A model generated the notes under the pieces. It did no database searches, was not told where the DNA came from, and saw only the letters and a list, made by a program, of their open reading frames with translations. This document shows positions 1,264 through 64,000 of a stretch of DNA of 64,000 bases, in pieces; the stretch's first letter is position 1; each line of letters starts with the position of its first letter. The stretch spans positions 62,001 through 126,000 of the IMG/VR virus record IMGVR_UViG_3300043395_002432; one strand, 5' to 3'. This DNA comes from a virus. Both the position numbers and the translations under genes were made by a program.

Positions 1264-1719
1264 TTAGGCCGGGGTCGTCACCCACGAGTCGCCGTCCCGT
1301 GCCACGGGAATCCCCGCGAGCCGCAGCGCCCTCCGAACCTCCTCCGTCGACACCAAGTCCGAAACGACGACCGAGATCTGCATGCGCTTCTCGCCCGCGT
1401 CGGAGTCCTCGATGGAGAGGTCAGCCTCCTTCCCGATGCGGATTCCGTCCGTCTGGTAGAAACGCACCGTAGCCGAAAGATCCCGCACGACCTTCTCGAT
1501 CTTCAGCGCGCTGCCCCAGAGTGAATCCATCTGGTGCGAGAGCGAACGAACTGTCACAGGAAGGAGCATCCGGGCGCGAAGGATGATCTCCGTCCCAGGC
1601 ATGGAGGAATGCCTGCTCGTCTCGCTCCAGGGACGCACCAAGTACTCCCGAACTACACGCCCAGGGGTCACGTCCTCGTCGAGGGAAATCTCTTGCAGCC
1701 GAAGGAGAAGGTCGCGCAT
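1264..1719 (-). CDS. Uncharacterised protein between tail genes
   Basis: The protein has 151 residues. I chose ATG 1719 because AAGAGGAA lies at the right distance; longer starts lack a site. The N-terminus, MRDLLLRLQE, resembles the short basic-hydrophobic tags ending in L-x-E seen on several other genes here and could be a prohead-protease substrate. The rest looks alpha/beta with no motif I recognise. It lies between the 2H phosphoesterase and a tail tube gene and is probably cotranscribed with both. Confidence 0.65.
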   Translation of the reverse strand: MRDLLLRLQEISLDEDVTPGRVVREYLVRPWSETSRHSSMPGTEIILRARMLLPVTVRSLSHQMDSLWGSALKIEKVVRDLSATVRFYQTDGIRIGKEADLSIEDSDAGEKRMQISVVVSDLVSTEEVRRALRLAGIPVARDGDSWVTTPA

Positions 1720-1772: not shown

Positions 1773-2360
1773 CTACACCAAGTCCTCACGACTCGCCTGA
1801 TCGATGGAGACGTGATTCACGACCAATGAGACGTTGCGGATCGGGATTGTGCGGTTCAATGGCGGAAGGTTTCGGATCTTTCCCTTCACGTCGTCATTCA
1901 ATGCGCCCGAGGGAAGGTAGCCAAGCGTCAGGTGCGGCCTGTACCGCAAGTACTGCTTCGAGACGTTTAGCGGATTGAACGCATGCACAAGCGCCATGTG
2001 GAGCGCATGCAGGTACGCAGAGGACACCGTGAGGATGATCGGGTTCGGCTTGCCCGCAGGCGCGTCGAACCACGAAATCGAATGCACCAAGAGGTCTCGC
2101 GGCTCAAGAAGGAGCGCAGGACGAAGGCTCTGGATCGCCTCTCGAAAGGCTTTGGTGTACGCCTCGACGTCCACACCCATGAGCGAATCCTTCGCGTAGT
2201 AGAGCGTCACATGCGCCCGCTCCCCGTCACTCTCGAGCGCAGGAAGGTTCCGCCACAACGAAAGCGCCTCCGAACGAAACCGCTCGTCGACGTATGACCC
2301 CACGAAGACGCTGTCCTCGGGCGTCAGGCTCGCCTCAAGCAGCTCGCGGAGAAGGCGCAT
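1773..2360 (-). CDS. 2H phosphoesterase (LigT / 2'-5' RNA ligase-like fold)
   Basis: This 195-residue protein has the two H-x-T signatures of the 2H superfamily: HVT at residues 50-52 and HLT at 143-145, each on a predicted strand and separated by about 90 residues. 2H enzymes hydrolyse 2',3'-cyclic or other cyclic phosphodiesters; the phage member Acb1 (T4 gp57B) degrades CBASS cyclic nucleotides. The N-terminus MRLLRELLEA matches an L-x-E prohead-protease site, so the enzyme may be packaged. ATG 2360 overlaps the tube gene stop by one base (TGATG). The 2H assignment is firm; substrate and packaging are inferred. Confidence 0.8.
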   Translation of the reverse strand: MRLLRELLEASLTPEDSVFVGSYVDERFRSEALSLWRNLPALESDGERAHVTLYYAKDSLMGVDVEAYTKAFREAIQSLRPALLLEPRDLLVHSISWFDAPAGKPNPIILTVSSAYLHALHMALVHAFNPLNVSKQYLRYRPHLTLGYLPSGALNDDVKGKIRNLPPLNRTIPIRNVSLVVNHVSIDQASREDLV

Positions 2361-11938: not shown

Positions 11939-13396
11939 TCAGGCCAGGGTCGACAAGCCAGTGATCGAGAGCTTCCCGTAGAACTCGGGACGATGCACCT
12001 TGAGCGCGTTCCGGGTGATCACGCCGAACTTCTTCGTCATGGTCACGGGATCGACCTGCGTCACGACGCGGATCGGCATGTAGGGCGCGAAGATCGTGCC
12101 AGCCTCCTCCCAGGTCGAGCCACGGTAGCCGAGCAGAATGCGCTTGGTGGACGAACCCTCGTCCATGAACAGATCCTCGTAGACGACGTACTTGTTGTTG
12201 TACGTCCCCCACCGCTTGATCTGCGGGTTCTTCGACGCCACCGGCTCGACCCCGTCCGCCATCCCCGCGCCCTCGCGCTTCAGCGTCGCACGGTAGTTCT
12301 CATGCCCAGAGAGCTGGTCGATCAGGGCGATGATCTCCGGCCCAACCACAATGTAGTTGGGCGTGAAGCCGCGAGTGCGCTGCCGCACGCGAGCCGAGAT
12401 CTGATCCAGCTTCTTCAGGATGTTCAGGATGTTGTCCAGCTCCGTCACCGCCGTGGCAGAGTAGGCCAGCGTGTCCGTGGTCGAAGCCGCCGAGAGCTGG
12501 GCGTCGATGATCTGGCGATCCAGCTCGGTGGCGATCTGGATCGTCATCTCGTCGACGATCTCCTGCTCCGCGTCCGCACCAGTGTGCGAGCGGATCTCGT
12601 CCATCGCCTCGAAGGTGAGGCTGGCGCGCAGGCGGCGAGTCTGGGCCGTCATGGTCACAGCCTCGAACGCCAGGGTCGTCTCACCAACAGCGGACGAACC
12701 CTCCATGTTCTGGTAGTAGCTCGCCACGATGGCGTCGCCGTTGGTGGGCGCGGTGTTGAAGGTGACCCGGAAGGCACCCGTGCTGTAGTTGATCGTGCCG
12801 GTGCCGCCGTCGTCACCCACCAAGAGGCCAGAGCCGTCGTCGGTGAAGACCTCGGTGCCGTCCGTGATCACCACAGAGACGCCCGTGGTCGAGTTGTACG
12901 GACGAACCGGGAGCTGGAGCAGGCTGCCCGAGAAGATCTTGGTGGCCCCGTTACCCGTGCCAGCCGCCTCCTCCTCGACGTACTCGCTCGAGTAGTGGCG
13001 GGCGAAGGTCTGGTTCAGCGAGGTCGCCGCCGCGATGTTGCCACGAGCCGAGCCGGTCTTGTACGACCGAATGAAGACCTGAGCGGTCGGCTTGTTGATC
13101 GGTGACACCAAAGCCAGATCGAACGCGATCAGCTGACCCATCGTCTTGCGGATCAGCGGCAGCGTCATGGCCTGCCCGTTGCTGATCACCGAGGTCGTGG
13201 TGTCCTCGTTCAGCGAGTCGCCAGGGTTGTTCCTGAAGTTCTCCATCATGACGGCGAGCGCCTCGTCGCGCTTGGCATTCCAGCCCGCACGCCGATCCCC
13301 ACGCTCGTCCTTGAAGGGGCGATCCAGCGAACGAAGCTCGCCGTTCTTGCCCTCGATCAGGCTCTTCCACTCTTCCACCAAGTTGTTCCGCGCCAT
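11939..13396 (-). CDS. Major capsid protein (gp23-like, HK97 fold) with a beta-module insertion
   Basis: This 485-residue protein matches T4 gp23 in its last 150 residues (IFAPYMPIRVVTQVDP, MTKKFGVITRNAL, then FYGKLSITGL). The E-loop region is interrupted at about residues 154-229 by a beta module of the same type as three modules in the tail sheath. The N-terminus has possible prohead-protease sites (LVE at 6-8, LIE at 13-15). It follows the protease-scaffold gene and is followed by a strong terminator. A strong AGAGGAG site precedes ATG 13396. Confidence 0.95.
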   Translation of the reverse strand: MARNNLVEEWKSLIEGKNGELRSLDRPFKDERGDRRAGWNAKRDEALAVMMENFRNNPGDSLNEDTTTSVISNGQAMTLPLIRKTMGQLIAFDLALVSPINKPTAQVFIRSYKTGSARGNIAAATSLNQTFARHYSSEYVEEEAAGTGNGATKIFSGSLLQLPVRPYNSTTGVSVVITDGTEVFTDDGSGLLVGDDGGTGTINYSTGAFRVTFNTAPTNGDAIVASYYQNMEGSSAVGETTLAFEAVTMTAQTRRLRASLTFEAMDEIRSHTGADAEQEIVDEMTIQIATELDRQIIDAQLSAASTTDTLAYSATAVTELDNILNILKKLDQISARVRQRTRGFTPNYIVVGPEIIALIDQLSGHENYRATLKREGAGMADGVEPVASKNPQIKRWGTYNNKYVVYEDLFMDEGSSTKRILLGYRGSTWEEAGTIFAPYMPIRVVTQVDPVTMTKKFGVITRNALKVHRPEFYGKLSITGLSTLA

Positions 13397-13556: not shown

Positions 13557-15860
13557 TTACTGCTTGGGCGCGACCATGCGTGCGAGGAGATCCTGAGCGT
13601 AGTTCAGGTCAGCCTTGCTCAGCGGCTGCTCTTGCGCGGGGCGAGAGACCTCCTCCTCAATGCGCTCGGCAGGAGCGACTCCCTTGAAGGAAGGCTCGGG
13701 GCTTGGTGCGTTCTGCAACCGAGCCTCCACGCTCTCCTCGAGCCTGCTCTCGCGGGCTGGGGCAAGGCTTTCCATGAGGTGCTTCACCCCCTCAGGCGTG
13801 TCGAGCTTCTGGATTCGAGCCTGGAGCGCGAAGCGATCCGGGCGAGTAGCGACGCTCAGGATCGCGCTCTTCTGCTCCTCCAAGAGCTGGCTCCGCGACT
13901 CCGCTGCCTCGATCCGCTTGGTGGCAGCAGCCTCCACCAACTGGAGCCGCTCCGCATGCGTGGTGCGCGCCTCCTCCATCTGCCGCTTCATCGCGGAGAC
14001 CTCAGCCTGGAAGCGATCCCGATCCGACTTCACCTCGGCAAGCTCGGTCTCGAGCTTCGAGAATGACTCAATCGTCTCGGAGATAGCTCCCCGCATCCGA
14101 GCGAGATCGTCCTGAAGTGTCTTGCGGGCCGCTTCCACAGATGCCTTCTCGACGTTGGCAATGGCGAGGTTCTCGCGGTGCCGCTGGATCTCCTCTCGGG
14201 CCGTGGCCAGATCCGCCTCGACCGCCTCAAGGCGAGCCTGCCAACGCTCGCCAGCACGCGCCTCGATGTCGACCCGCTCTCCAGAGAGGCGCTCCAGCAC
14301 CAGCTTCTTCAGCGCCTCCTCGGGGGTGCCGATCTCGGGAGTGGCGAAGATCTGCTCCAGCCGATCCTTCACCACGGCCTCGGTGAGCTTCGGCCCCATG
14401 AGCGTGCGGATCAGATCCGTCTTCGGGTGCGCCCCCGTCTGGCGCAGCATGAGGTTCTCCGCCCGGAGAGACTCGATCTGCTCCACCAAGCGCCGGTTCC
14501 GATCCTGTGCCTGGAGGTTCTTGAACTCCTCCCGCACCAACGCGTCCGTCAAGGACTCCACCCGATCCCGACTCTCGAGGAGCGCAGCCGCCTGAGGGCT
14601 GTTGACCAGCGGCTCAAGGTGCGGACGAATCGCCTCCACGATCCGAAGGGCAGCCATGACGCGAGGATCTTGGCTCGAGACCTGCGAGAGCGCCTGCTTG
14701 CGCCCAAGCGCATGCGCTTCTGCCGTCGCCTCCTCCATGCGCGTCCGCATCTCCGCGATCACCAGCTCCCGAGCCGACGAGATCGAATTCGCCAACGCGT
14801 CCCGCTCAGCGGTGACCTGCTCCAGGGTCAGCCGCCCCTCCGCCAGCAAGGTGGCCGACTCGTTCTTGGTGGTGGCATTCTCCTCAGTCAGCGTGCGAAT
14901 CCGCTCCTCACGCCCTTGCAGTTCCGTCTCCATCTCAGCGATCTTGGCGACCTTCGCGTCAAGGTCAGCCTGAGCCTCCTCCAAGCGAGCGCGCACCAAA
15001 CGATCCCGCTCCACGTCCCGCTCGTTGAGCTTGGCGATCTCCTCCTGAAGCGCACGAAGCTCTGCCCCCGCGTCCTCCTTCACGTCCTCCCTCACGTCCT
15101 CCTTCGTCTCTCCCAGCGTCTCCTGCGCCTCAGCCTGCGCCTCCGAGACCACTTCAGCGGCCTCAGGCTTAGCTTCGACCGCCTCCGCTACCTCCTCAGC
15201 GTCCTTGGTGCCAATGAGCTTGCGAACCACGTCGTCCGCCTCAAGCAAATCCCCCGCGATCATGTCCTTGGCCGCTTCGAGCAGAAACGGATTGTCGGAG
15301 AGAATTTGCCGCATCTTGACCTCGTCCGCCTCGACTTCGCGGATCGACTCGTTGAGCGACTCCGCAAGCGGATACGCGGTCTTCACCGAAGGGTCGACCA
15401 CGAAGTCGAAGGTCTTGAGGCGCAGATCCTCATTGACGTAGTCGGCGTCCCCCCTGCGCGTCACGCTCCCCGAGGCGCGAGAGGAGATCCCCACGGCAGC
15501 GTTCGCCTCGATCAGCGCCTGCATGATCTTGCCGCCAGGGGTGTTCAGGATCACGCAGGAACCCTCGATCACCCCGTCCTCGCGGATCTTCAGATCCTCG
15601 ATGAGGTGGCTCACGCGCCAGAGCGAGGTCTTCCCCTCGGCAGGATGATCCAGCTCACCAAGCATGCGCCTCTTGGTGAGATCCTCGGAGGCGAGCTTGA
15701 GCGCATTCTCCATGATGCGCCGCTCGTAGATCCGCCCGTTCTGGTTCTTCGCGTCGACCCGACCAAACTCCCCCTTGACGCGAATCAAGCCAGCCGGGGT
15801 GCGCGCCTCCACAATGCTCAGAACCTGATCCGCCACCCGCTCGTAGAGTGTCTCCATCAT
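13557..15860 (-). CDS. Prohead protease (gp21-like) fused to a long coiled-coil scaffold
   Basis: I start at ATG 15860 (AGAGAGGAAACGA upstream), giving 767 residues. Residues 1-180 are the T4 gp21-type serine protease: LGELDHP with catalytic His72 and GISSRASGS with the nucleophile at Ser126/127. From about residue 250 to 720 the protein is a charged heptad-rich coiled coil, as expected for the gp22 prohead core. In T4 these are two genes. A short N-terminal segment ends SIVEA, which fits self-cleavage. It lies between the portal block and the capsid gene, the canonical place. Confidence 0.92.
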   Translation of the reverse strand: MMETLYERVADQVLSIVEARTPAGLIRVKGEFGRVDAKNQNGRIYERRIMENALKLASEDLTKRRMLGELDHPAEGKTSLWRVSHLIEDLKIREDGVIEGSCVILNTPGGKIMQALIEANAAVGISSRASGSVTRRGDADYVNEDLRLKTFDFVVDPSVKTAYPLAESLNESIREVEADEVKMRQILSDNPFLLEAAKDMIAGDLLEADDVVRKLIGTKDAEEVAEAVEAKPEAAEVVSEAQAEAQETLGETKEDVREDVKEDAGAELRALQEEIAKLNERDVERDRLVRARLEEAQADLDAKVAKIAEMETELQGREERIRTLTEENATTKNESATLLAEGRLTLEQVTAERDALANSISSARELVIAEMRTRMEEATAEAHALGRKQALSQVSSQDPRVMAALRIVEAIRPHLEPLVNSPQAAALLESRDRVESLTDALVREEFKNLQAQDRNRRLVEQIESLRAENLMLRQTGAHPKTDLIRTLMGPKLTEAVVKDRLEQIFATPEIGTPEEALKKLVLERLSGERVDIEARAGERWQARLEAVEADLATAREEIQRHRENLAIANVEKASVEAARKTLQDDLARMRGAISETIESFSKLETELAEVKSDRDRFQAEVSAMKRQMEEARTTHAERLQLVEAAATKRIEAAESRSQLLEEQKSAILSVATRPDRFALQARIQKLDTPEGVKHLMESLAPARESRLEESVEARLQNAPSPEPSFKGVAPAERIEEEVSRPAQEQPLSKADLNYAQDLLARMVAPKQ

Positions 15861-16161: not shown

Positions 16162-17145
16162 TCAGTTTCCCTCAGGCAGCTCCACCGCCGCCAAGAACGC
16201 AGGCCGGAGCGGCACCACCGTGTCGATCTCCTTCGCCAGCGCCTGAAGCACCGAGAGGCGGTTCAGGATCGGCGCAAGGTGCGCTGCCTTGTTCCACTCG
16301 CCCAGCACCGACTCCTCGAGGGTCTTGTCGCAGCCCGCCACCAAGGACTCCGCGATCTGCCCGTGGCCCTGAAGCTCGGAGAGGTTCGAGGTCTCGATGA
16401 TCGCCTGGATCTTGTCGGCACACTCCGCAATGGCGAGGTTCAAGGTGCCAGCCGCCTCGAACAGCGCGAAGTCGAGAGGGTCGACCGGGGTCGTGGCGGG
16501 AGCCGCAGACTCGTTCAGGAGCGCCCGCAGGGCCGCGACTGACTCGTTCTTCGGAGCAGGAGCCGCAGCCTTCTTGAGGTGCAGCTTCGCCCGCAGCTTC
16601 GCCACCTTCTTCATGTGGCGCTTGGTGGAAGCCTTGCGGCGGTATACCTTCGCATACCGCTTGCGATCCGAGCGGTGCCGACGCCGCAGGAGCTTCGCCT
16701 TCATCTTCTCGGCACCCTTCAGGATGCGCTGCTTCACCTTCTTCAGCGAGCCACCCACCAAGCGCCGGATGAGCTTGAACGCCTCATCGAGGGACGCACC
16801 AGAGGCGACCGCCTGGGCGACCTTCTCGGTGATGTTCGCCTTCACGGCGTTGCGATCCTTGTCCTCGACCGCCTGCTCGGAGAGGATCACGTCGCTGGCA
16901 TACGCGGCGTCCACCATCTCCATGAGCGCGTCCACGACCTCGGCGGAGGTCTTGAAGCGAGACTCGGGCAGGACAATCGGGTCGTCCTGCTTGGTGGCCG
17001 CAGGCTCGGTCGAAGCGGTGGCGGCGGCTGGGGCGTCCGTGGTCTGCCGCTCCTCGGTCAGGGGCTTGGTGGCCACAGGCTCAGCCTGCTTGATCCCCAT
17101 GAAGCGCATGGCGCTCGCGGTCAGCTTGTCCTTGTCGATGCTCAT
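16162..17145 (-). CDS. Prohead core-like protein with a highly basic middle
   Basis: The 327-residue product starts at ATG 17145 after GGGAG. The N-terminal 60 residues are Ala/Thr/Pro-rich. Residues of about 140-200 are extremely basic (repeated K, R and H, e.g. LLRRRHRSDRKRYAK). The C-terminal third is a neutral helical domain. It lies between portal and protease, where T4 has prohead core genes. A core or DNA-contacting head protein is the best guess; no family is recognised. Confidence 0.65.
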   Translation of the reverse strand: MSIDKDKLTASAMRFMGIKQAEPVATKPLTEERQTTDAPAAATASTEPAATKQDDPIVLPESRFKTSAEVVDALMEMVDAAYASDVILSEQAVEDKDRNAVKANITEKVAQAVASGASLDEAFKLIRRLVGGSLKKVKQRILKGAEKMKAKLLRRRHRSDRKRYAKVYRRKASTKRHMKKVAKLRAKLHLKKAAAPAPKNESVAALRALLNESAAPATTPVDPLDFALFEAAGTLNLAIAECADKIQAIIETSNLSELQGHGQIAESLVAGCDKTLEESVLGEWNKAAHLAPILNRLSVLQALAKEIDTVVPLRPAFLAAVELPEGN

Positions 17146-17906: not shown

Positions 17907-17924
17907 AACGAATTCGAATTCGTT
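17907..17924. repeat. Perfect 18-bp TTCGAA-core palindrome after the portal gene
   Basis: AACGAATTCGAATTCGTT abuts the portal stop codon and precedes the ribosome site of the next gene. Confidence 0.95.
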
Positions 17925-19780
17925 CACTCCTCGCGCCGACGCGATCTCCGATCCTGCTCATTGCGAATCCCGGTGAGGATCTTGGTGCGCCGGATCTCCT
18001 TTCGAAGCTGGATCAGCTCTCGCTCGAGCTTGAGCAACCGCGCCCGCTCCTGATCTCGACGAAGGCGCTCCGCCTTCTCGTCCGCACCAAGACGCCGAAT
18101 CTCTCGAAGGAGCGTAGAGGACGTCGAAGCGTCGAGCGGATCGCGCTCAGTGAGGATCTTCTTGATCATCGGGTCAAGCACTGACTCTTGCGGTTCCTCG
18201 GGCATAGCTGCCTGCTGTGCCGCCATGATCTGCCCTTGTGCGCTTGCCTCGAGTTCCGCTTGCATGGCAGCAGCAGCACGATCCGCCTTCTCCTTCGCCT
18301 TGGTGACCTCACGCGCCTCCTGTTCAGAGAGACCGAACGCACGACGCAGAATGTCGTCCTTGGGAAAGAAGTCCACCATGCGGCTCGCAAGATCCGCCTT
18401 CGCGCTTAGCGCCTCGATCTGCGCCAGCTCGTTGATCTGCGACGGGGGCGTCATGTGAATGCTCCACTTCACCGCATCCGGGTCAATGCCCTTGGCAGTC
18501 AGGTGGTAGCGGCAGATCATGGACACGCCCGCGAGGATCTCGTTCTGAATTCGCTCCACGGTCGAAGCAAAGCGTGAGTCAAGCTGCGCGAGTGAAGCGC
18601 GAGTGTCGCCCTCTTCGAGCGAAAGATACGCCCGAGGAATCTTGAGCTTCGCCAAGACGTGCTTCAGGAAGTACTCAAGATCCTCGGTGTTCTGCCAATC
18701 CGCACCAGAGAGCATCTCGATCTCGGTGCTACGCTTCCCGTTCGAGGTCGCCACGAAGAAGTTCTCTTCTTGCCCAAGCGGGGAGGCGCGAAAGTCGATC
18801 TTCCCGTCAGGAGTCACAAACCGCTTCTTGGTGAGCATCGTCTTGGCGTTCTGAATGTGCGCCTGCGCCTGCTGCGTCGTCTTGCTGGTGGTGTCGATGT
18901 AAAAGACGAAGCGAGCGGGTGAGCGCGTGAGCTTGTAGACAATGGCCGAGTCCTCGAGCAGGGTCAGCCGACGCCACGCCCAGATCGCGTCATGCAGGAT
19001 TCCGTACCCGTAGACCGAGCTGCTCTCCCGAAGCCTCCAGTGAATGACCTCCCACGGCTCAAATGGCACCAAGCCCGTCGCACGAAGCTGCTCTTGGAGC
19101 TTCTGGTGGAAGAGCAACATGCTCCGAATGTCCTTGCTGTTTGGCTCAGGGATCGGCTTCTTCTTGATCTCCTGATACAGCACGGACGCCTGAACGTAAG
19201 CCTCCAACGAAAGCGTCCGCGAGGACAGTAGCTGTGCGAATCCAAGGTGCTTCCCGAGATCCGTCTCTACGCGGCGCATGCTGGAGGTCGGAAGGGGGCG
19301 AAAGCCCGCCACTCCCTCCTGCGAGTACGCGATCTCCGAGAAGCGATTTCCGTACAGGCAGAGCAGGCGAGCCGTCGAACGGAGGTCGTCCCCGATCTTG
19401 AGCCGATCCAAAAGGTCGTTCAGCTCCTTCTGAATTCCCTCATGCTCAGAGACGCACCAGACCTTGCGGTTCTGGAGGTGATCCTTCTTGGTGCTGTCGT
19501 CAGCGTAAATATCCAACGCCGTCGACAGCACGGGGTACTCGGACATGGCCTCGTAGTCCGCATACCGATTCTGCAGGTCGATCTGCTGGCCAAAGGCGGA
19601 AGACAGGCCACCAAAGGGAGAGGCGGTCTGAAAGGGATGCTCCAGACCGTAAAAGCGGGGGGCGGGTTCCTCAGCACCAAGACCAGCCCCCTTAGGAAGC
19701 TCCTTGGTGGTTTCCTTGACGGAAGCCTTAGGAGCCTCCAGAAGGAGGCTCTGTCCCACGATCTTGCTGAACCAGCTCAT
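17924..19780 (-). CDS. Portal protein (gp20-like)
   Basis: This 618-residue protein has the T4 gp20 layout: an early DYEAMSEYPVLSTALDIYADD segment, the AIVYKLTRSPARFVFYIDT strand-helix region, then YLSLEEGDTRASLAQLD and a charged helical C-terminal region ending in a basic coil. Portals form the dodecameric DNA-entry ring. The N-terminus contains SLLLEAPKAS, an L-L-E|A site matching the protease consensus. It lies between the ParB/terminase block and the prohead core genes. Confidence 0.92.
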   Translation of the reverse strand: MSWFSKIVGQSLLLEAPKASVKETTKELPKGAGLGAEEPAPRFYGLEHPFQTASPFGGLSSAFGQQIDLQNRYADYEAMSEYPVLSTALDIYADDSTKKDHLQNRKVWCVSEHEGIQKELNDLLDRLKIGDDLRSTARLLCLYGNRFSEIAYSQEGVAGFRPLPTSSMRRVETDLGKHLGFAQLLSSRTLSLEAYVQASVLYQEIKKKPIPEPNSKDIRSMLLFHQKLQEQLRATGLVPFEPWEVIHWRLRESSSVYGYGILHDAIWAWRRLTLLEDSAIVYKLTRSPARFVFYIDTTSKTTQQAQAHIQNAKTMLTKKRFVTPDGKIDFRASPLGQEENFFVATSNGKRSTEIEMLSGADWQNTEDLEYFLKHVLAKLKIPRAYLSLEEGDTRASLAQLDSRFASTVERIQNEILAGVSMICRYHLTAKGIDPDAVKWSIHMTPPSQINELAQIEALSAKADLASRMVDFFPKDDILRRAFGLSEQEAREVTKAKEKADRAAAAMQAELEASAQGQIMAAQQAAMPEEPQESVLDPMIKKILTERDPLDASTSSTLLREIRRLGADEKAERLRRDQERARLLKLERELIQLRKEIRRTKILTGIRNEQDRRSRRREE

Positions 19781-19820
19781 GCCCTGAGCTTACCCCACAC
19801 GGGGCAGTCGAGCGACTACT

Positions 19821-20285: not shown

Positions 20286-20325
20286 GCCCCTCATGTATCC
20301 CCAGCCTCATGGCTTGCCAGACCCC

Positions 20326-21249: not shown

Positions 21250-21258
21250 GCCTGCTCC

Positions 21259-21615
21259 TTAGCGTTTCTTTCCCTGGTTCTCTTCAAGCCAGAGACGACC
21301 CCGCTCAGTCAGGATCGCCCACTCGATCTTGCGCGGGCCAGAAGACGAAGGACGCTCTTCGATCCGCACCAAGCCACGACGCTCGAGAGAGAAGTACGTC
21401 GACCGATCATTGAACCCGTCGTTGTAGCCAGCCGAGATCAGCGCAACCTCTCCCCGTGAAGCCACGCGCTGAAGCGCCGTCCGCTGATTGTACCCAAGTG
21501 GTTTGGTGGTGACATCCACAAGCCCCCCACGAGCCATGTCGTCAAACAGCGGATCGGTCTCGGAAGAAGCCATGCCATAGTCTAACCGAAGACTTTGCAG
21601 GCTGTTTGCAATCAC
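21259..21615 (-). CDS. Small winged-helix-like protein
   Basis: This 118-residue product probably starts with GTG 21615, overlapping the methyltransferase stop; an ATG at 21573 lacks a ribosome site. The pattern YFSLERRGLVRIEERP, a wing-like turn, then WAILTERGRLWLEE is typical of PadR/MarR-type winged helices. It could be a regulator or a DNA-bound structural factor. It sits between the methyltransferase and the ParB-like gene. Confidence 0.6.
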   Translation of the reverse strand: MIANSLQSLRLDYGMASSETDPLFDDMARGGLVDVTTKPLGYNQRTALQRVASRGEVALISAGYNDGFNDRSTYFSLERRGLVRIEERPSSSGPRKIEWAILTERGRLWLEENQGKKR

Positions 21616-38245: not shown

Positions 38246-38410
38246 GGTCTTGGTGCCTTGTTGCCTTACGGCTGTTGTTGGCTTTGCTTGCGCCGCTTGC
38301 GATCCTGATTGATCGCTGCCCGCCCCTTCTATATACCCTGGGCGACCAAAGAGGTCGAGGAATCCCGTGTAAGCCAATCGTCAAGTGGGCAGGAACGAAT
38401 TCGAATTCGC
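38246..38410 (-). promoter_or_regulatory. Leader of the SSB gene with a TATATAG element
   Basis: GGGTATATAGAAGGGG on the minus strand lies about 85 bases before ATG 38245 and resembles the TTATATAG element at about 30395, so both may be late -10 boxes. A palindrome copy lies upstream at 38396. Confidence 0.45.
38396..38409. repeat. TTCGAA-core palindrome after the primase stop
   Basis: CGAATTCGAATTCG begins one base after the stop codon at 38411. Confidence 0.9.
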
Positions 38411-39565
38411 TCAGAGCTGGATCGTCGCCCGACGCACCCCAGCCTCCAGCGGAAACTCCGAATCGCGCACCAAGCGGAGACGCTCGTTCAGCACGTCCAC
38501 ATGCTCTTGGTGCATCTCCCCTGGATCTTTCACCCCCGGCGGGAGCAGGATCGTGATCAGCGCACGCCCAGGCTCATTGAATCGAAGGAAGTTGTCCACC
38601 TCCCGGTTCATCCCCCGACCCGCGTCGTCCTGATCCCCCATTGTCGCAAGCGGCATCGTTGGTGCAATCCGAGCCGAGATCTTCCGAATCTGACTCCACG
38701 CAGGGTGCGCCCCCATGATCGCCAACGGGGAAGCCTCCAGCCCCAAGCTCAGCGGTCGAAGGACGTCGAGGAAGCCCTCCACGAAGATCGGGATCGCATT
38801 CGCCTTGTAGTAACGCTCCCCGTACAGAAGGATCGACTTCTCCATCCCAGGAGTATGGTAGTACTTCGGATGATTGTGACCGCAACGCTTACACACGCTA
38901 AGCGGCTTCTCAAGCGTAGCGTCGCACCGCTCACAGATGCATGACGTCCTGTAGCTCCGCGCCGAAATCCCATGCACGACCCCAAGCTGATCTCGAATCG
39001 GGAAGATCGCACGCTGACGACGACGATCCGTCATCACCCCAAACCACGCAAGAACGTCAGGAGAGATCCCCCGATCCACCAAGTACTGCGGCACCTCATC
39101 GTCATACGACTGAAGCTCGTCCATTGAGAACGACGAATTCGACTTCGGTCGATACGACGTCTCCGTTGGTGCCACATGCGGTCGAACCACCGGCTCGAAC
39201 TTCACACGCTCCAGCGCATGATTCGACGACACCCACCGCAACGAACTCAGCCGCGAGAGGTTGAAGGGATCTTCCTCTCCCCGATCCTCCTGCCGCTCTT
39301 GCACATGCGAAAGGAGATCCCAAAAACGCTCGCCAAGCTGGTGCGCGAAGTACATCACCAGCCCTTCGAGCTTCCCCGTATGCCCGCAGCCAAGGCAGCA
39401 ATAACCAGGGATCGTCCCCGGAGGAGACTCCAAGACCGCAAACGAAGGCGACCGGTCGTCATGGAACGGACAGCAAGCCAACACCTTCTTCGCTTTGACC
39501 TTCACCTCCTTCAGGCCGAGCTGGTGCAGGACGAGCGCAATCGCCTCCGGGCTGGTGTTCATCAT
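38411..39565 (-). CDS. DnaG-type primase
   Basis: The 384-residue product (ATG 39565, or 39562) has a CHC2 zinc finger at 31-60 (CCPFHDDRSPSF, then CCLGC), a linker, a second zinc cluster (CICERC, CKRC) and the TOPRIM motifs IFVEGFLDVL and GDQDDAGRG. It makes RNA primers for lagging-strand synthesis. A second zinc plus primase-like gene lies at 55267-56979. The start is coupled to the preceding stop (ATGATG). Confidence 0.9.
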   Translation of the reverse strand: MMNTSPEAIALVLHQLGLKEVKVKAKKVLACCPFHDDRSPSFAVLESPPGTIPGYCCLGCGHTGKLEGLVMYFAHQLGERFWDLLSHVQERQEDRGEEDPFNLSRLSSLRWVSSNHALERVKFEPVVRPHVAPTETSYRPKSNSSFSMDELQSYDDEVPQYLVDRGISPDVLAWFGVMTDRRRQRAIFPIRDQLGVVHGISARSYRTSCICERCDATLEKPLSVCKRCGHNHPKYYHTPGMEKSILLYGERYYKANAIPIFVEGFLDVLRPLSLGLEASPLAIMGAHPAWSQIRKISARIAPTMPLATMGDQDDAGRGMNREVDNFLRFNEPGRALITILLPPGVKDPGEMHQEHVDVLNERLRLVRDSEFPLEAGVRRATIQL

Positions 39566-51744: not shown

Positions 51745-51762
51745 AGCGAATTCGAATTCGCT
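51745..51762. repeat. Perfect 18-bp TTCGAA-core palindrome after the RNR gene
   Basis: AGCGAATTCGAATTCGCT overlaps the RNR stop codon by one base. Confidence 0.92.
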
Positions 51763-57232: not shown

Positions 57233-57250
57233 AGCGAAGTCGAATTCGCT
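57233..57250. repeat. TTCGAA-type palindrome after the MBL-fold gene
   Basis: AGCGAAGTCGAATTCGCT touches the stop codon at 57250 and abuts the terminator stem. Confidence 0.88.
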
Positions 57251-58071
57251 CAGAACGCGGAGATCGAAGGGATCGCCTCCCGCGACCGGGCCAACGTGAT
57301 CGAGTAGCTCTGACCAGAATGCTCCCGAGCCAGCTCCGCGTACTTCCGAGCCAGCTCATGGGTATTGGTGCTGTTCGAGATATGCCCCACCACCAAGTGC
57401 CGAAGCGAGGGCGTATTCCCAACGAGAAGCCTGTAAGCCTGCTCATTGCTCAGATGCCCGTAGTCCCCGCGAATTCGCGTTCGCACCGACGACGGGTACT
57501 CTGAATTCAGGAGCATCTCAGGGTCGTGATTGAATTCCATCACCAAGATCTCGACCTCTTTCAGCCGCTCCCGAATCACCGAGGTCGCCCGACCCAGATC
57601 CGTACAGACCATTGCCGTCGAATGGCTGTTGGACACCAAGAAGCACACAGGCTCCCGAGTGTCATGCGGAACAGGGATCGCCTCAATCTTTAGGTGCTTG
57701 ACGAAGAAGACCGAACGCTCGATCACCTCTTGGCACCGAATCTTGCCCCGCTCCAGATTCTTCGACCCCTCCCACGTCCCCCGCGTAGCCCACACGTCAG
57801 GCATGCAGCCCCGGCCAGCCAACGCCCGCTGCACAACGCCAACGCCACCAACATGGTCGATATGCTCATGCGTAATGAGGATCGAATCAATCGGGTGGCG
57901 CTCTAAACCCCCAGCAGCCTCTAAGCCTTGCTGAAGCCTCATGTTCGACCCACCGCAGTCGATCAGAACGCCAGCATGATCGTCCCCTACCCAGGTGCAA
58001 TTGCCTTGCGACCCCGAGGTGAGGGAAAGAAGCCGAAGAGGCTTTGCCAGCCGAACCCCCCTCAGGCGCAT
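57250..58071 (-). CDS. Metallo-beta-lactamase-fold nuclease (YycJ/WalJ-like)
   Basis: The 273-residue product has the family signatures LTSGSQGN at 17-24, THEHIDH with His68, His70, Asp72 and His73, the MEFNHDPEMLL segment, and GHLSN with a late VGHIS. YycJ-type enzymes are 5'-3' exonucleases acting on DNA ends. In a phage this could process replication or recombination ends or degrade host DNA. It is downstream of a small membrane protein and followed by a terminator. Confidence 0.85.
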   Translation of the reverse strand: MRLRGVRLAKPLRLLSLTSGSQGNCTWVGDDHAGVLIDCGGSNMRLQQGLEAAGGLERHPIDSILITHEHIDHVGGVGVVQRALAGRGCMPDVWATRGTWEGSKNLERGKIRCQEVIERSVFFVKHLKIEAIPVPHDTREPVCFLVSNSHSTAMVCTDLGRATSVIRERLKEVEILVMEFNHDPEMLLNSEYPSSVRTRIRGDYGHLSNEQAYRLLVGNTPSLRHLVVGHISNSTNTHELARKYAELAREHSGQSYSITLARSREAIPSISAF

Positions 58072-58335: not shown

Positions 58336-59679
58336 TTACACCAAGCCAAGGACGAGCAACCACGACGGTGAGCCGTCCGGGCCGAATCCTTCCGGCTCGA
58401 CCTTCTTGCCGGTCACCGACTTCGCAATGCCATCGCCCATTTTCTCAATGGCCGACCATGTCGGCATCTTCATGAAGGGCTTTCCGAAGATGCCCTCCAA
58501 GTACTTGGTGCTGATGCGGGTGTTCGGGCGCGAGGCGAAGTCGACGATGGCCATTGCCGGATTGGCCTCGTCAAAGCGAACGGTCGCTTTCTCCCCTGCC
58601 TGAAGGACGGTGCCGTCCTTCAGCTTCAGCGAGTCCTTCTTCAGGGTCACGGGAATGCCCGTATTCGGCTTACCAGCAGCTTCCTTCAGCGGCTTCCGCA
58701 CCACGGTCTTGTACTTCCAGGGGTAGGCCGCGACGGCAGCCTTCAGCTCTGCCATTGCTGCCTCTACCTTGCGAGGAGATTGGCTCACCCCCATCGCATG
58801 AAAGACGTCCTGAGCCTTCGCAAGCATGGCACCAACGGTCGGGCCTGTCCTCGGAGCATACCCGTTCACCTTGCGCCACGCATCGCCCAGCTTCTCGAGC
58901 GCGAGAACCAGCTCCTCGGAGTCGTCAGCGAACTCGTACCGATCCACCTCGGCTGTCGTCCAAGTGTCCTTCACCCGGTCGTAGGTCGCATAAAGCTGGC
59001 GAATGAGCGACATCAGCTCCCGCTCCTCCTCCTCGGACGGCTCCCCATTGGCACCAATCGCCTCCCAGACCTCTCCGCCATCCTTCAGCGCCGAGTGAAG
59101 CTCGTCCTCCATGTCGTTCTTGAACGCCTGAAGGTTCCCGTCGAAGCCCTGGAACTCCTTCCAGAATTCCCGAGCCATTGCGGGAAGCACGTCCTCCGCC
59201 TCGGAGCCAAAGAATGCCTTGGTGAAGGAATCCAGCGTGTAGCCCTTCGCGTGCGGATTGACCTTCTGCTCACCAAAGGACGCCGTGGAGTCCTTCAGGA
59301 AGGAACGCGCTGCCGTCTCCCCCTTCTTGGTGAGCGAGTAGAGGTCAGGGGCGTTGTCGACCTCGACCCCGTAACGGCCCATGCGATCCCCCGAGCCAGA
59401 GGCGACCTGCTGGGCGTAGCCCTTGTCCTCGAGCGCCCCCAATGCCTGCTCGATCTCAGCGAGGCTCGTCTTCCTCTTGGTGCCACGGTTCATCTCCGCC
59501 TCAATGTCCTCGGGAGAGACCTGCATGCCGCCGCTGTAATCCTGAATGTCCGCCATGATCGCCAGGACGAACATCCACGTCTCAATCCCCTTCCCCTTCG
59601 TGGCCCGGATCAAGCCCTTCAGGGTCGTGTACTGAGGAACCCCCTCCACCAACGCCAACGTCTCAACCAGCCACTTCAT
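58336..59679 (-). CDS. Probable internal head protein, large
   Basis: 447 residues. The N-terminus MKWLVETLALVEG contains two L-V-E sites of the prohead-protease type. The body is alpha-helical and acidic, with a winged-helix-like segment at 60-130 (EIEQALGALEDKGYAQQV, DLYSLTKKGE). It is first of its kind after the P7 unit and has its own sigma70-like promoter. An injected DNA-binding protein is possible. Function inferred from the tag and neighbours. Confidence 0.6.
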   Translation of the reverse strand: MKWLVETLALVEGVPQYTTLKGLIRATKGKGIETWMFVLAIMADIQDYSGGMQVSPEDIEAEMNRGTKRKTSLAEIEQALGALEDKGYAQQVASGSGDRMGRYGVEVDNAPDLYSLTKKGETAARSFLKDSTASFGEQKVNPHAKGYTLDSFTKAFFGSEAEDVLPAMAREFWKEFQGFDGNLQAFKNDMEDELHSALKDGGEVWEAIGANGEPSEEEERELMSLIRQLYATYDRVKDTWTTAEVDRYEFADDSEELVLALEKLGDAWRKVNGYAPRTGPTVGAMLAKAQDVFHAMGVSQSPRKVEAAMAELKAAVAAYPWKYKTVVRKPLKEAAGKPNTGIPVTLKKDSLKLKDGTVLQAGEKATVRFDEANPAMAIVDFASRPNTRISTKYLEGIFGKPFMKMPTWSAIEKMGDGIAKSVTGKKVEPEGFGPDGSPSWLLVLGLV

Positions 59680-59696
59680 CGCTCACCTCAAGGTGG

Positions 59697-59725
59697 CGAT
59701 AACACCCACGTTACAGAAGTGACAA
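59697..59725 (-). promoter_or_regulatory. Sigma70-like promoter
   Basis: TTGTCA, 17 bases, TTATCG on the minus strand, 18 bases before ATG 59679. It directly follows the hairpin at 59726-59745. Confidence 0.65.
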
Positions 59726-59745
59726 GGGACACCACTTGGTGTCCC
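59726..59745 (-). terminator. Hairpin built from the CACCAAG word
   Basis: GGGACACCAAGTGGTGTCCC forms an 8-bp stem with an AAGT loop, 21 bases after the stop at 59766. There is no long T-tract. Confidence 0.6.
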
Positions 59746-59748
59746 CGT

Positions 59749-59762
59749 CGAAGTCGAATTCG
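59749..59762. repeat. TTCGAA-type palindrome after a stop codon
   Basis: CGAAGTCGAATTCG ends four bases before the stop of the gene at 59766. Confidence 0.85.
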
Positions 59763-59765
59763 TCC

Positions 59766-60500
59766 TCAGTCCCTCAGACCGCCCACCAAGCTCCCCATCT
59801 CCAGAGAGATCCCGAGCTTTGCAAGAAGCCCATGAGCCTTGTCGAGCCGCGTCTCCGCCTCAACAAATTGGATACGGACGTCGTCCAGAGACGTGGCGAA
59901 CCGCGAGACCTCTTGGCGAACCGCCTTGACCCCGTTGGTGAAATTCGCCTCCTCCTCTGTCGCCAGCTTGACAGCCGCATCCGGCTTGCCATTGGCCAGA
60001 CTGTACAGCCTCGGCACGAAATTGAGGGGCTTTACCGTGATGCGTTGCCCGAGCTTCTTCTCGCAGAGGATCTCCAGCCGCGTGTGGGCATCCATGAAGG
60101 CGAGCAGGGTCTTGCGGCTGTCCGCCATGAATTTCTCCGTGTAAGAGGCCGCATCCTTCAATGCGGGGAGGATTCGCTGAACCTCTCGAGCCGCAGCCGA
60201 GAATTGCTCCCGAGCCTCGTTCAACGCCTCGATCTCTTTCGCCAGAACCTCGCTCGCCGCAGGAGAGGAGGATTCCTCGACCCGCCCCTCCACGACCCCC
60301 TCGATCCGCTTCACCGAGTACTTCACGCCGGGGACGTTCTTCTTGGCCCAGGCATGCGCCTCGGCCTCGGTGGCGTAAGCCCCACGCGTCAGCGTCTTGG
60401 TGGCGTGCTGCCACTCCGTCTTGCCGGGAGGGAGAACCACCGTGAAGTAGGCTTCCCCCTCCAGGGCGGTTTCTGCGATCAGTTGTGCGAGCGTCTTCAT
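59766..60500 (-). CDS. Probable internal head protein with a T4-type capsid-targeting tag
   Basis: 244 residues from ATG 60500 behind AAGGAG. The N-terminus MKTLAQLIAE-T closely resembles the T4 internal-protein targeting sequence (MKTYQEFIAE-A), with the I-A-E cleavage site at the same position. After it come a small alpha/beta domain (YFTVVLPPGKTEWQ, AEAHAWAKKNVPG) and long coiled helices. Internal proteins are cut by the prohead protease and injected. Family otherwise unrecognised. Confidence 0.68.
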   Translation of the reverse strand: MKTLAQLIAETALEGEAYFTVVLPPGKTEWQHATKTLTRGAYATEAEAHAWAKKNVPGVKYSVKRIEGVVEGRVEESSSPAASEVLAKEIEALNEAREQFSAAAREVQRILPALKDAASYTEKFMADSRKTLLAFMDAHTRLEILCEKKLGQRITVKPLNFVPRLYSLANGKPDAAVKLATEEEANFTNGVKAVRQEVSRFATSLDDVRIQFVEAETRLDKAHGLLAKLGISLEMGSLVGGLRD

Positions 60501-60509
60501 GTTGTCTCC

Positions 60510-61052
60510 TTAGGAATCCTTCAGCCTTGCGAGCAAACCGTTCAACACCTCAAGGTGCGCCACGACCTTCGAGAAGGGAACCCGGATTTCCACCAGCCTG
60601 CGCGAGAGCGAGTCCAGCGGCTTCGTCAGCAGCTTCGTTACCGTACCGACACGCTCCGCATCCCCAAGAGCTTCCGAGACCTTCTCGACGTCCGCCCCCT
60701 GAAGGAGTAACTCCATCGCCCGGACGAGATGCTCGAAGGGCTTGGTCGAGATCTCCACCCCATAGGGCTTGCACGCCATGATCGCCTCGTCACGGACGTC
60801 CAGAAACGCCTGGATCGTACTCTTCGCGTTGCGAGCGAAGGCAGGATTCCGAGTCGAAGGCGCAGTCCGAATTTCCAAGATCAGATCGCGGAGCGTCTTC
60901 GACTTGGCCCACGCCTCCTCGTAGAGGCTCTCAAACAGCTTGACCTCCCCCTCCAAGAACGCACTCGCATCCTCGATCTTCTTAGGGCTTAGCGGGGTCA
61001 ACAGATCGTCAAGGGGCGTCGACTCCACCAAGACTTGCGCGAGCTTCTTCAT
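60510..61052 (-). CDS. Probable internal head protein, helical
   Basis: 180 residues from ATG 61052 behind GAGGAGAA. MKKLAQVLVE-S parallels the tag of the next gene downstream (MKTLAQLIAE). The remainder is an all-helical charged bundle, with C-terminal similarity in layout to that same gene (AHLEVLNGLLARL versus KAHGLLAKLG), so the two are likely paralogues. Confidence 0.65.
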   Translation of the reverse strand: MKKLAQVLVESTPLDDLLTPLSPKKIEDASAFLEGEVKLFESLYEEAWAKSKTLRDLILEIRTAPSTRNPAFARNAKSTIQAFLDVRDEAIMACKPYGVEISTKPFEHLVRAMELLLQGADVEKVSEALGDAERVGTVTKLLTKPLDSLSRRLVEIRVPFSKVVAHLEVLNGLLARLKDS

Positions 61053-61073
61053 GTCGGGTTCTCCTCGGGTGGA

Positions 61074-61100
61074 ACTCAAAGCGATACTCTCGCTTTGAGT
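61074..61100. terminator. Perfect 11-bp inverted repeat
   Basis: ACTCAAAGCGA and TCGCTTTGAGT arms with a five-base loop lie between two genes. There is no T-tract on either side. Confidence 0.6.
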
Positions 61101-61384
61101 CAAGCGTATCTGCTCTCGGGCCAAATGTCATTGGTGCTGACCTTGACATCCTCACCCGTCACCGTGGCAAGGACACCACCCCTCCGAAGAAGGGAAGCGA
61201 TCCGCTTCGCGTCCGCATTCGAATTCGTTTGCAAGACGACCTCCCCAGGGGCGTCCACCCAGGTGAACCTGATCCCCGAGACCTCGATCTCAGCACCAAA
61301 TCTGCCGAACTCGAACCCGAGGACGGCACCAATGGCCTTGTAGGCGTCAGCGGGCGTATGCAAGACCTTCAGCAGTGCGCGCAT
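61100..61384 (-). CDS. Small unknown protein
   Basis: 94 residues: MRALLKVLHTPADAYKAIG start, strands (AEIEVSGIRFTWVDAP), then ADAKRIASLLRRGG and a final strand. A palindrome copy encodes QTNSNAD. GGGAGG precedes the ATG. The basic-hydrophobic start resembles the neighbouring tags but has no L-x-E. Confidence 0.6.
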   Translation of the reverse strand: MRALLKVLHTPADAYKAIGAVLGFEFGRFGAEIEVSGIRFTWVDAPGEVVLQTNSNADAKRIASLLRRGGVLATVTGEDVKVSTNDIWPESRYA

Positions 61385-61410
61385 TCGAATCCTCCCATAA
61401 CGATGTCGAA

Positions 61411-62169
61411 TTAAAGAGGAGTCACGTCCACGTGACCCTTCTCACCAACGCTAACCTCGAATTTACCACGACCGAATTTGGCATCGATGGCACCCTGCAC
61501 CTCCTTGGTGATCGGATTGACGTAGTCCGCACGCCAGCCATCCTCGTCCCAATCGCCGCCATCTTGGCCCTTCTCCCAAAAGTGATCGAGCCGCTTGCGC
61601 CATTCGTATGCGATCCGCCAATTCCCCCATTCGGCGTCCCAACGCACCTCTTCCACTCGCCCCCCGGTCTTGGTGGTCAAGCCTCGAAGGAATGGGGCAA
61701 CCGAAGCAGGCTCCTTCCCCTCATGGATCTCATCTTCCTCTACGACCTTGAGGGCGCGCAGGACGGAGGGGCGCAGGATCTTGAGCGCTGCCGAGACCTC
61801 CTCCGCTGCGAGCTTCTCAGCCGACGCTGTGGGAATTCCCTTGCGCTTGAGCTTCGTCACCTCCAAGAGGGTCGACCGCAGGCGCACCAAGAAGGCAAAT
61901 TCCCTCCGCACGTCAGGAAACTCCGAGACGAGCGATCCCGCGACCTTCGGCAAGCTCCCCATGCCAGAGAATTCCCACTCACCCTGGAGCTTCAGGAGCG
62001 CGTCACCAAGATCCGTGATCGCAATGGCCGCTTCCGAGTGACGAACGCCACTCCTCAACGCCCGCTCCGCTTCCGAAAGCAGATCCAGAATCCTCCTCGA
62101 CATCTTCCGCAGAGAAGCCGAAGAAGAGCCGTACCCCTGCTCATTCAGTGCCGCTACGAGACCACGCAT
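61411..62169 (-). CDS. Probable internal head protein, shares a C-terminal domain with the next gene
   Basis: 252 residues. MRGLVAALNE-Q is a tag-like start (L-N-E). A helical middle is followed by a C-terminal domain of about 95 residues: FLRGLTTKTGGRVEEVRW, RKRLDHFW, GDWDEDGWRADYVNP and a closing strand GHVDV. The same domain closes the gene at 62180-63298. AAGGAGG precedes the ATG. Function unknown. Confidence 0.62.
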   Translation of the reverse strand: MRGLVAALNEQGYGSSSASLRKMSRRILDLLSEAERALRSGVRHSEAAIAITDLGDALLKLQGEWEFSGMGSLPKVAGSLVSEFPDVRREFAFLVRLRSTLLEVTKLKRKGIPTASAEKLAAEEVSAALKILRPSVLRALKVVEEDEIHEGKEPASVAPFLRGLTTKTGGRVEEVRWDAEWGNWRIAYEWRKRLDHFWEKGQDGGDWDEDGWRADYVNPITKEVQGAIDAKFGRGKFEVSVGEKGHVDVTPL

Positions 62170-62179
62170 GTCACCCTCC

Positions 62180-63298
62180 TTAGCTCAAAAGGGCCGCGAG
62201 AGACTTCACCCGCGACTCCACGATCTTCTGTAAACCCTTGTTGGTGCGGTAGACCCCGACGTAGCCCTTGTCGTCGATCTCGACATCGAACAAGTCAGCA
62301 CCAAACTCACCCTCGAGGCGAGCAACGATCTCGTCCCGAAGGGGAGAGGCGTAGTCCTCATCCCACCCCTCAGAGTCCCACCCATCTTCGTCGTCTTCGC
62401 TCGAACCGTAGTGATCCAGACGCTCCCGATTCTCTGGCTCCGCAAGCCATTCAGCACCAGTCCATTCTGGACGCTTGAGTCGACCTGCCGTCTTGGTGCG
62501 AAGGCCCGAGAGGAATCGAGTGACCTCGTCCACGCTGAAGTTCCCGGCAGCCTTCTTCTCCGCCTCCGCCTTCTCGGCAGCAGCCTTCTCGGCCCTGATC
62601 CGCTCCTCGCGCTCCCTTGCCGCCGCCATATCTTTGTCGTAGGAGGACAAGCGCCGCGTGAGTTCGGCTGCCTTCGCCTTGATGTCGTCTGAACTTAATC
62701 CGGCGACGAACCTGCGTTTACGGTCGTAGACCTTGAGTAGCCCTTCCTCTTCGACGGAAAGATCGTCTCCATTAATGGAGCTGTCCACGTCACGAAATTT
62801 CAGGAGGCTTTCTACACCAAGCCTCGCTGTGACCAAGTTGGTGTCTCCCGTCCCCAGATCGCTTCCACTCGATAAACGCCCAGAATTAAGCAATGTCAAG
62901 GATGCTGTCTTGATCCCGACTTTCTTCTGTGTCTTGGTGATGTGCTTCGCTAAGTCAGGGATACGAGCAGTCCTCCTTCCGTTCGAGAGCTTGCCTGCAT
63001 CGAGCAGCGCGCATATCACCTCAAAGTCGGCATCAATGGCGAAGATGTTGGATTTATCCAACCCCTTGGTGACGAGCTTGTAGCAGTCCGTCAAGAAGCC
63101 CGACTTTGGACGCAACTCCACGTCCCTCTTCTCGAGGCTCGCATCCCGCAGAGTCTTCAAGCGCAGCATTTCCTTGAAGCCCACCTTCTGCGCCCAAGCC
63201 GAGGTATCGAAGTATGCAACCGCCAGAGCTTGCTTCTCGTAAGCACGACGCTGGGCATCCGATAACTTGGCTTCCAGTAGTTCACCGATGGTCCTCAT
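62180..63298 (-). CDS. Probable internal head protein, paralogue by C-terminal domain
   Basis: 372 residues from ATG 63298 behind AGAGGGAGAG. MRTIGELLEA-K matches the tag with an L-L-E|A site. The centre is alpha/beta (SNIFAIDADFEVICALLDAG), followed by an Ala/Glu coil and the shared domain: FLSGLRTKTAGRLKRPEW, RERLDHYG, EDGWDSEGWDEDY. Possibly an injected enzyme or DNA-binding protein. Confidence 0.62.
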   Translation of the reverse strand: MRTIGELLEAKLSDAQRRAYEKQALAVAYFDTSAWAQKVGFKEMLRLKTLRDASLEKRDVELRPKSGFLTDCYKLVTKGLDKSNIFAIDADFEVICALLDAGKLSNGRRTARIPDLAKHITKTQKKVGIKTASLTLLNSGRLSSGSDLGTGDTNLVTARLGVESLLKFRDVDSSINGDDLSVEEEGLLKVYDRKRRFVAGLSSDDIKAKAAELTRRLSSYDKDMAAAREREERIRAEKAAAEKAEAEKKAAGNFSVDEVTRFLSGLRTKTAGRLKRPEWTGAEWLAEPENRERLDHYGSSEDDEDGWDSEGWDEDYASPLRDEIVARLEGEFGADLFDVEIDDKGYVGVYRTNKGLQKIVESRVKSLAALLS

Positions 63299-63345
63299 GG
63301 CTCTCTCCCTCTTGGTGGCTTTAGTCGAGGATGTCGGCGCGGGCA

Positions 63346-63361
63346 ACGAATTCGAATTCGT
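63346..63361. repeat. TTCGAA-core palindrome after a stop codon
   Basis: ACGAATTCGAATTCGT is a perfect 16-bp palindrome touching the stop at 63361. Confidence 0.9.
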
Positions 63362-63831
63362 CAAACGAGATCAGCGTAGAGAGCTTCTCGCTGCTCTTTG
63401 GTGCCGTACATGTGGACGAACTCGTCAATGGTCAGATCTGACCTACGTCCGAGACCCTCGACCCGCATGCGGTACGTCATGGGGTCGATCTTCCTTGCCT
63501 TCGGGCAGCGAATGACCATGTCGACCGCCGTAGCGATCTGCGCCTCTGTTGGATTCCGACCGAAGCGAATGTTGTAGGCGTTGGTGACACGCGCCCACCC
63601 CTGAAGGTAGAGGAAGGCATCTGCTGGCCCTCCATGCTTGCGGTACGCCTCTCCGTCCGCATGCTTCCCGCGTAGGTACCGCTCGGCCCACTCGTTATGC
63701 ACCTCCCCACCAAGAGAGACCCACTCCCCAGACGGCTTGAGCCAAGCCGCCGAGGTGTAGTGAGGCGTGCAAGCATGAGCGATCTCCCACTCCGCGAAGG
63801 CTTCGCTCAAGACTTGGTGCAAGAGGCGCAT
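63361..63831 (-). CDS. Uncharacterised protein with a tag-like N-terminus
   Basis: 156 residues. MRLLHQVLSE-A resembles the 2H phosphoesterase start (MRLLRELLEA) and fits an L-S-E|A site. The rest has a His/Trp-rich middle (HNEWAERYLRGKHADGEAY) with a GWARVTNAYNIRFG segment, then helices. No family recognised. Start is close behind the preceding stop, with a weak ribosome site. Confidence 0.6.
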   Translation of the reverse strand: MRLLHQVLSEAFAEWEIAHACTPHYTSAAWLKPSGEWVSLGGEVHNEWAERYLRGKHADGEAYRKHGGPADAFLYLQGWARVTNAYNIRFGRNPTEAQIATAVDMVIRCPKARKIDPMTYRMRVEGLGRRSDLTIDEFVHMYGTKEQREALYADLV

Positions 63832-63835
63832 GGGA

Positions 63836-64000
63836 TCAGTGGGTACGGACTTCGTACTTGCCGATCTTGAGGTAGACGCTCAGGCTCAGCCCCTTGATCT
63901 GCTCGTCCATGTAAATCACATACCCATCGGGCCGAGGATCAACAGACGAGATCGTGACGTCCATCTCGTCCTTCGCGCCATACCCGAGCTTGCTCTTGAG
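63836..64000 (-). CDS. C-terminal end of an unknown protein (runs off the right edge)
   Basis: The last 54 codons of a minus-strand frame ending in TGA 63838-63836. The visible part is strand-rich (EMDVTISSVDPRPDGYVIYMD, closing LKIGKYEVRTH). Its stop lies five bases before the next start, as expected for the same operon. Confidence 0.6.
   Translation of the reverse strand, partial: LKSKLGYGAKDEMDVTISSVDPRPDGYVIYMDEQIKGLSLSVYLKIGKYEVRTH

Follow-up and report, generated by a model that had tools for sequence, protein, structure and literature searches.

The internal proteins of phage T4 are first-response weapons against host defence, but the lack of sequence similarity among their bodies has made such proteins difficult to detect in other phages. 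In T4, an N-terminal tag takes these proteins to the prohead core and is removed by gp21; they are later injected along with the DNA, and IPI and IPIII act against host defences (PMC3012670, PMC5694885, PMC9391042). Similarly, the ejection proteins of SPN3US and phiKZ-like giant phages have N-terminal propeptides that are cut by the prohead protease and thought to direct them to the head (PMC5694885, PMC10052503). In P1, the Dar N-terminal signal brings defence-countering proteins into the head, with no consensus among Dar N-termini found in that study (PMC9024508).

The locus described here belongs to an uncultured, T4-like phage. The window, meaning the whole 64,000-base stretch that was analysed, covers bases 62001-126000 of a 139,496-base record, at 61% G+C; the record has 161 called genes, nearly all on the minus strand, several gene starts being predictions of a home-made caller. 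Megablast found no DNA-level relatives of the region in the phage collection, and the relatives discussed below were located via the portal protein, all being other uncultured phages. An assembly of the same phage (G013), 99.99% identical across 61.9 kb, confirms record positions 29372-91229, and has none of the tagged cluster within it. The head module is of T4 type:

17924..19780, minus strand: portal protein, gp20 type (phrog_213, 1.6e-46)
16162..17145, minus strand: putative prohead core protein (15 LxE sites, 3.6 expected)
13557..15860, minus strand: prohead protease (S77, gp21-type) and long scaffold-like coiled coil in one fusion (PF03420, 5.5e-19; LxE sites enriched)
11939..13396, minus strand: major capsid protein, gp23 type (predicted cut SLNE/D; LxE absent from the mature part)

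An earlier note on this DNA had reported a gp21-type protease, and the PF03420 match bears this out; the S77 protease was also found in 18 relatives. The capsid protein is approximately 24% identical to those of known T4-like phages. The protease and scaffold, corresponding to T4 genes 21 and 22, occupy a single reading frame at window 13557-15860, and this fusion seems general in the lineage, as the protease-holding frames of relatives are likewise long, at about 500 to 1100 aa.

The tagged genes, and two untagged genes in or beside their run, are as follows, a slash marking the predicted cut, and the rule and T4 profile being those defined further on:

57250..58071, minus strand: untagged metallo-beta-lactamase-fold protein adjoining the tagged run (PF12706, 6.9e-20)
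58336..59679, minus strand: tagged protein, 447 aa, MKWLVETLALVE/G, with a C-terminal domain ending VEPEGFGPDGSPSWLLVLGLV (rule)
59766..60500, minus strand: tagged protein, 244 aa, MKTLAQLIAE/T (rule and T4 profile; 6 of 10 residues as in T4 IPII/IPIII)
60510..61052, minus strand: tagged protein, 180 aa, MKKLAQVLVE/S (paralogue of 59766-60500, Z 10)
61100..61384, minus strand: 94-aa protein MRALLKVLHTPADAY inside the run, with the similar start MRALLKVLHT without LxE; not counted as tagged
61411..62169, minus strand: tagged protein, 252 aa, MRGLVAALNE/Q (C-terminal domain in common with 62180-63298)
62180..63298, minus strand: tagged protein, 372 aa, MRTIGELLE/A (start corrected)
63361..63831, minus strand: tagged protein, 156 aa, MRLLHQVLSE/A (rule and T4 profile)
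63836..64000, minus strand: C-terminal part of a tagged MAKSIASLLSE/S protein, 326 aa (record 125836-126816, extending beyond the window end)
1773..2360, minus strand: tagged 2H phosphoesterase, 195 aa, MRLLRELLE/A (PF13563, 4.3e-8)
1264..1719, minus strand: weaker candidate tagged protein, 151 aa, MRDLLLRLQE/I (rule)
Record 38217-38630: tagged gene, MRTLIDALNE/G after AGGAGAGGGAG (corrected start)
Record 133476-134342 and 19586-21316: further tagged genes

These shared N-termini are very probably capsid-targeting propeptides on internal head proteins. Like the CTS of T4 IPI, IPII, IPIII and Alt, each is a short, hydrophobically spaced N-terminal tag ending in (L/I)xE (in T4, MKTYQEFIAE/A and, for Alt, MELITELFDE/D), and, as in the T4 internal-protein system, unrelated bodies are combined with an S77 protease and a gp23-type head. 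The locus differs from T4 in having about a dozen tagged genes where T4 has a few, in the lack of any detected relation to T4 cargo sequences, in the two further tag wordings of its relatives, in the exchange of tags and in the fusion of protease to scaffold. A description of the tags as near-identical to that of T4 holds for MKTLAQLIAE, with its six of ten matching residues, but not for the remainder. The best explanation is that the tag system would operate like the T4 internal proteins, with the number, wordings and exchange of tags, and the protease-scaffold fusion, being what is new. The propeptides of SPN3US and phiKZ-like phages, by contrast, mostly exceed 100 residues, whereas the tags here span 9-20; the Dar proteins resemble the tagged set in having an N-terminal head signal, but their N-termini lack a shared consensus.

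All six N-termini that the earlier note had listed were confirmed, each of them on the minus strand. A Shine-Dalgarno-like site precedes five of them, none being obvious for window 63361-63831. For the gene at 62180, the start is placed at 63298, with the Shine-Dalgarno site AAGAGGGAGAGAGCC, rather than at the first TTG of the open reading frame at 63364; correcting starts adds two tags, those of 62180-63298 and record 38217-38630. The earlier count of five to six candidates proved too low, as the tagged set comprises about a dozen genes. Its members are otherwise mostly unrelated proteins, but the statement that the rest of each differs holds only in part: 59766 and 60510 are paralogues, and 61411 and 62180 have a C-terminal domain in common (Z 27), the note having already reported such a domain in two of the proteins.

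The tags are not random. The T4-type rule specified M, then K or R, then a hydrophobic residue, followed by an (L/I)xE finishing at residues 8-13; it was matched by 11 of the 161 genes against 1.07 expected, with a maximum of six in 5000 shuffles that permuted residues 2-14 of every protein. Under the same rule, IPII and IPIII were recovered from the T4 genome. As the rule was composed after the finding had been read, though T4 fits it, a second profile built solely from T4 tags (IPII, IPIII, 61.1, Alt and gp24) was also scored, giving six matches against 0.90 expected (maximum five in 200). The tag helices are amphipathic, with a moment of 0.33 against 0.19 when shuffled (p < 1/2000), and T4 tags lie at 0.26-0.36. 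Furthermore, seven of the eight consecutive genes from record 120336 to 126816 (window 58336-64816) are tagged, with a chance of about 2e-6 over all runs. Unbiased pairwise comparison of N-termini in this genome found no excess of similarity (15 pairs against 10.25 shuffled), the test being flat because helix-rich words score alike once shuffled; as the position-specific tests were positive, the signal lies in spacing rather than in similarity of letters. One rule match, at record 138710-139384 (MKILARLPGLRELLE), reads as chance and was excluded. The same scan also picked out T4 gene 61.1 (NC_000866 18966-19130), annotated as hypothetical only, with the CTS-like start MKTFKEFIKE/D.

Most of the tagged bodies had no match in Pfam, PHROGs, NCBIfam or PADLOC, with weak MCE, AcrIIA4 and tape-measure matches falling below cut-off and being dismissed. 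Searches for homology to IPI, IPII, IPIII and Alt in Pfam, PHROGs, NCBIfam and the six-frame T4 translation also found no match, and T4 bodies diverge fast. In the phage collection, the tagged proteins returned nothing or weak 2H matches only, and whole-protein scans for two of them found no relatives. For the C-terminal domain of 58336, AlphaFold gave a low-confidence model (pLDDT 67), whose SH3/Tudor-like PDB matches were not significant. The protein at 1773-2360, which lay outside the earlier note's finding, is more informative: it has two HxT motifs (AHVTLYY and PHLTLGY), scores 33.8 bits against a PF13563 cut-off of 27, and has a low-confidence model that matches the 2H fold. By sequence profile, its nearest solved relative is the anti-CBASS nuclease Acb1 (7t26, E 1.1e-4), of the T4 57B type; both are 2H phosphoesterases, but the window protein carries a tag. 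It fails the cut-off of the Acb1 family PF23474 (E 0.013, 15.7 bits against 27), although its homologue in one relative (G012) passes (1.1e-6), and other 2H enzymes outrank Acb1 in the fold search. Hence only membership of the 2H superfamily is claimed. Among the cargo of relatives, one tagged body has a DUF3175 domain (3.7e-10), and a tagged protein of G061 has a HEMVH metallopeptidase-like motif, its M90 match being sub-threshold.

This range of cargo bears upon the possibility that the tagged proteins are structural, being cleaved but then retained as part of the shell, a vertex or the neck, as is T4 gp24, rather than injected. The gp24 start, MAKINELLRE/S, closely resembles the MAKSIASLLSE/S of the 63836 protein, and the structural region contains some tagged genes. 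However, the cargo is too diverse, and its distribution too patchy, to represent shell parts, and among it are the 2H phosphodiesterase and the G061 metallopeptidase-like protein; we therefore regard retention as unlikely, though it is the alternative that survives best.

The surroundings of the cluster fit a role in counter-defence without proving it. The metallo-beta-lactamase-fold protein at 57250..58071 has weak similarity, below cut-off, to the anti-Pycsar protein Apyc1 (PF23023, 8.5e-4). On the other flank, beyond the right end of the window, record C1:127330-129945 encodes an 871-aa fusion of a Hen1 N-terminal region, a methyltransferase and a PNKP ligase, which is a single-chain RNA repair enzyme, and a Dam-type methyltransferase lies near this side of the cluster. 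Elsewhere, window 51762-54671 encodes a B12-dependent (class II) ribonucleotide reductase whose sequence is broken at about residue 130; Pfam domains match either side of the gap, and the insert, NC-FVGDTSILTREG ... VVPGVERFTLASGIYTSN-C, reads as an intein.

The head proteins of the lineage carry an LxE code. An (L/F)xE lies exactly 14 residues upstream of a conserved capsid motif in 18 of 18 relatives, matching the place at which T4 gp23 is cut. The capsid propeptides of relatives contain 58 (L/I)xE sites against 14.9 expected, and the mature parts only 22 against 43. In this phage, there are none in the mature capsid protein (3.4 expected), 22 in the scaffold part (13.1 expected) and 25 in the tagged bodies (35.6 expected), the last representing a mild depletion. 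Judged by the position of the sites and by their enrichment and depletion, (L/I)xE behaves as the specificity of the protease, and the depletion makes the tagged bodies look like proteins that need to survive it, unlike core proteins. The tagged proteins might instead be prohead core or scaffold components, equivalent to T4 gp67, gp68 and gp22, which are targeted to the head, cut up and lost rather than delivered. T4 core proteins too begin near an LxE (gp22, MLKEQLIAEA), and proteins of the core must exist in this phage as well. Yet its core and scaffold candidates are rich in LxE and the tagged bodies poor in it, and about ten different families, including an enzyme, are unlikely scaffolds, making this explanation improbable.

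The reading of the tags as targeting propeptides on internal head proteins is extended by the relatives, in which tags are exchanged. A long class of about 19 residues, M-x-L-x-x-[VIA]-N-x-L-L-x-x-[AV]-V-x-x-L-x-E/A (for example, MSVEWVNGMLNEAIAELAE/A), heads unrelated proteins in G005, G015 and G061, with a chance of 2e-6 per position. A second, MNLRKRxYLxE/[AGS], has six starts in G015, one being internal and in-frame, and at least four in G061, with a chance of 5e-5 per position; codons vary synonymously among its copies, indicating that selection acts on the protein. The C-terminal domain of 58336-59679 (VEPDGFGPDGSPSWLLVLG) occurs in 12 further viral contigs: it is tagged with MKWLVETLALVE here and MSVEWVNGMLNEAIAELAE in G061, probably stands behind the MRIEQIRETHKEVVGNIEE tag in G015, and in other phages is without an LxE tag. 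Likewise, the record 125836 protein has a G061 homologue (E 6.4e-9) behind the different tag MTLSEVNSILETALFRLSE, the bodies of G015:6341 and G061:43606 are related (Z 49) behind tags of different classes, and homologues of the 2H enzyme have a diverged tag, MIVRSLVE/V, in G012 and none in G005. The jumbo phages G058, G059 and L193 have the same cargo domains without LxE tags, which suggests that tag and cargo domain are separate units. Neither short nor long tags were in excess in most other relatives sharing the protease, so the amino-acid composition of the lineage does not account for the tags; the system may be patchy, or the tags of these relatives may differ.

Two further arrangements were seen. 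In the jumbo phages L178 and L182 (150 and 536 kb), in which the S77 protease was not found, the 58336-59679 cargo domain lies behind another N-terminal motif (RLIRLASTLPTGSDERKAIL; LMRLAHANPELRAHIVPLL), which may be a different kind of targeting signal. In G015 (L150:6401-7339, minus strand), a tagged open reading frame has a second in-frame MNLRKRTYISE near residue 173, with its own Shine-Dalgarno-like site; either translation also begins there, or a polyprotein is cleaved at this second tag.

Hence the claim of a shared T4-like tag, cleaved after L/I-x-E, is well supported by the tag statistics, the (L/I)xE code seen in the lineage's head proteins, and the relatives' differently worded tags with the same ending on homologous cargo. 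That amphipathic N-terminal helices acquired LxE by coincidence, as the flat pairwise similarity and a rule fixed after the finding was seen might suggest, can be given almost no weight against the excess under both the rule and the T4-only profile, the clustering of the genes and the chance values of the relatives' tag classes.

By analogy with T4, each tag, being a short amphipathic helix, would probably dock the new protein onto the prohead core, after which the S77 protease would cleave behind (L/I)xE, leaving the mature cargo free within the head to be packed with the DNA; we hold docking, cutting and packaging to be highly likely. Entry of the cargo into the next host cell alongside the DNA is one step further from the T4 comparison, and is likely rather than highly so. 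Some of the cargo, at least, would then counter host defence after entry, to which we give about an even chance. More tentatively, and on balance doubtfully, there may be a lineage-wide plug-in delivery system, in which several independent cleavable tag classes, more than one per genome, are swapped among cargo domains. Each phage would thereby pre-load many enzymes of its own, among them a 2H phosphodiesterase possibly able to destroy immune signalling nucleotides at entry, before phage genes are expressed.

If the tags have been read correctly, they are possible packaging signals, with which chosen proteins could be loaded into phage heads. They would also make tag evolution visible, as three wordings with one ending. 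On the same condition, injected proteins could be listed from sequence alone, by tag and cut site, even in uncultured phages, yielding a testable set of candidate proteins for countering host defence.
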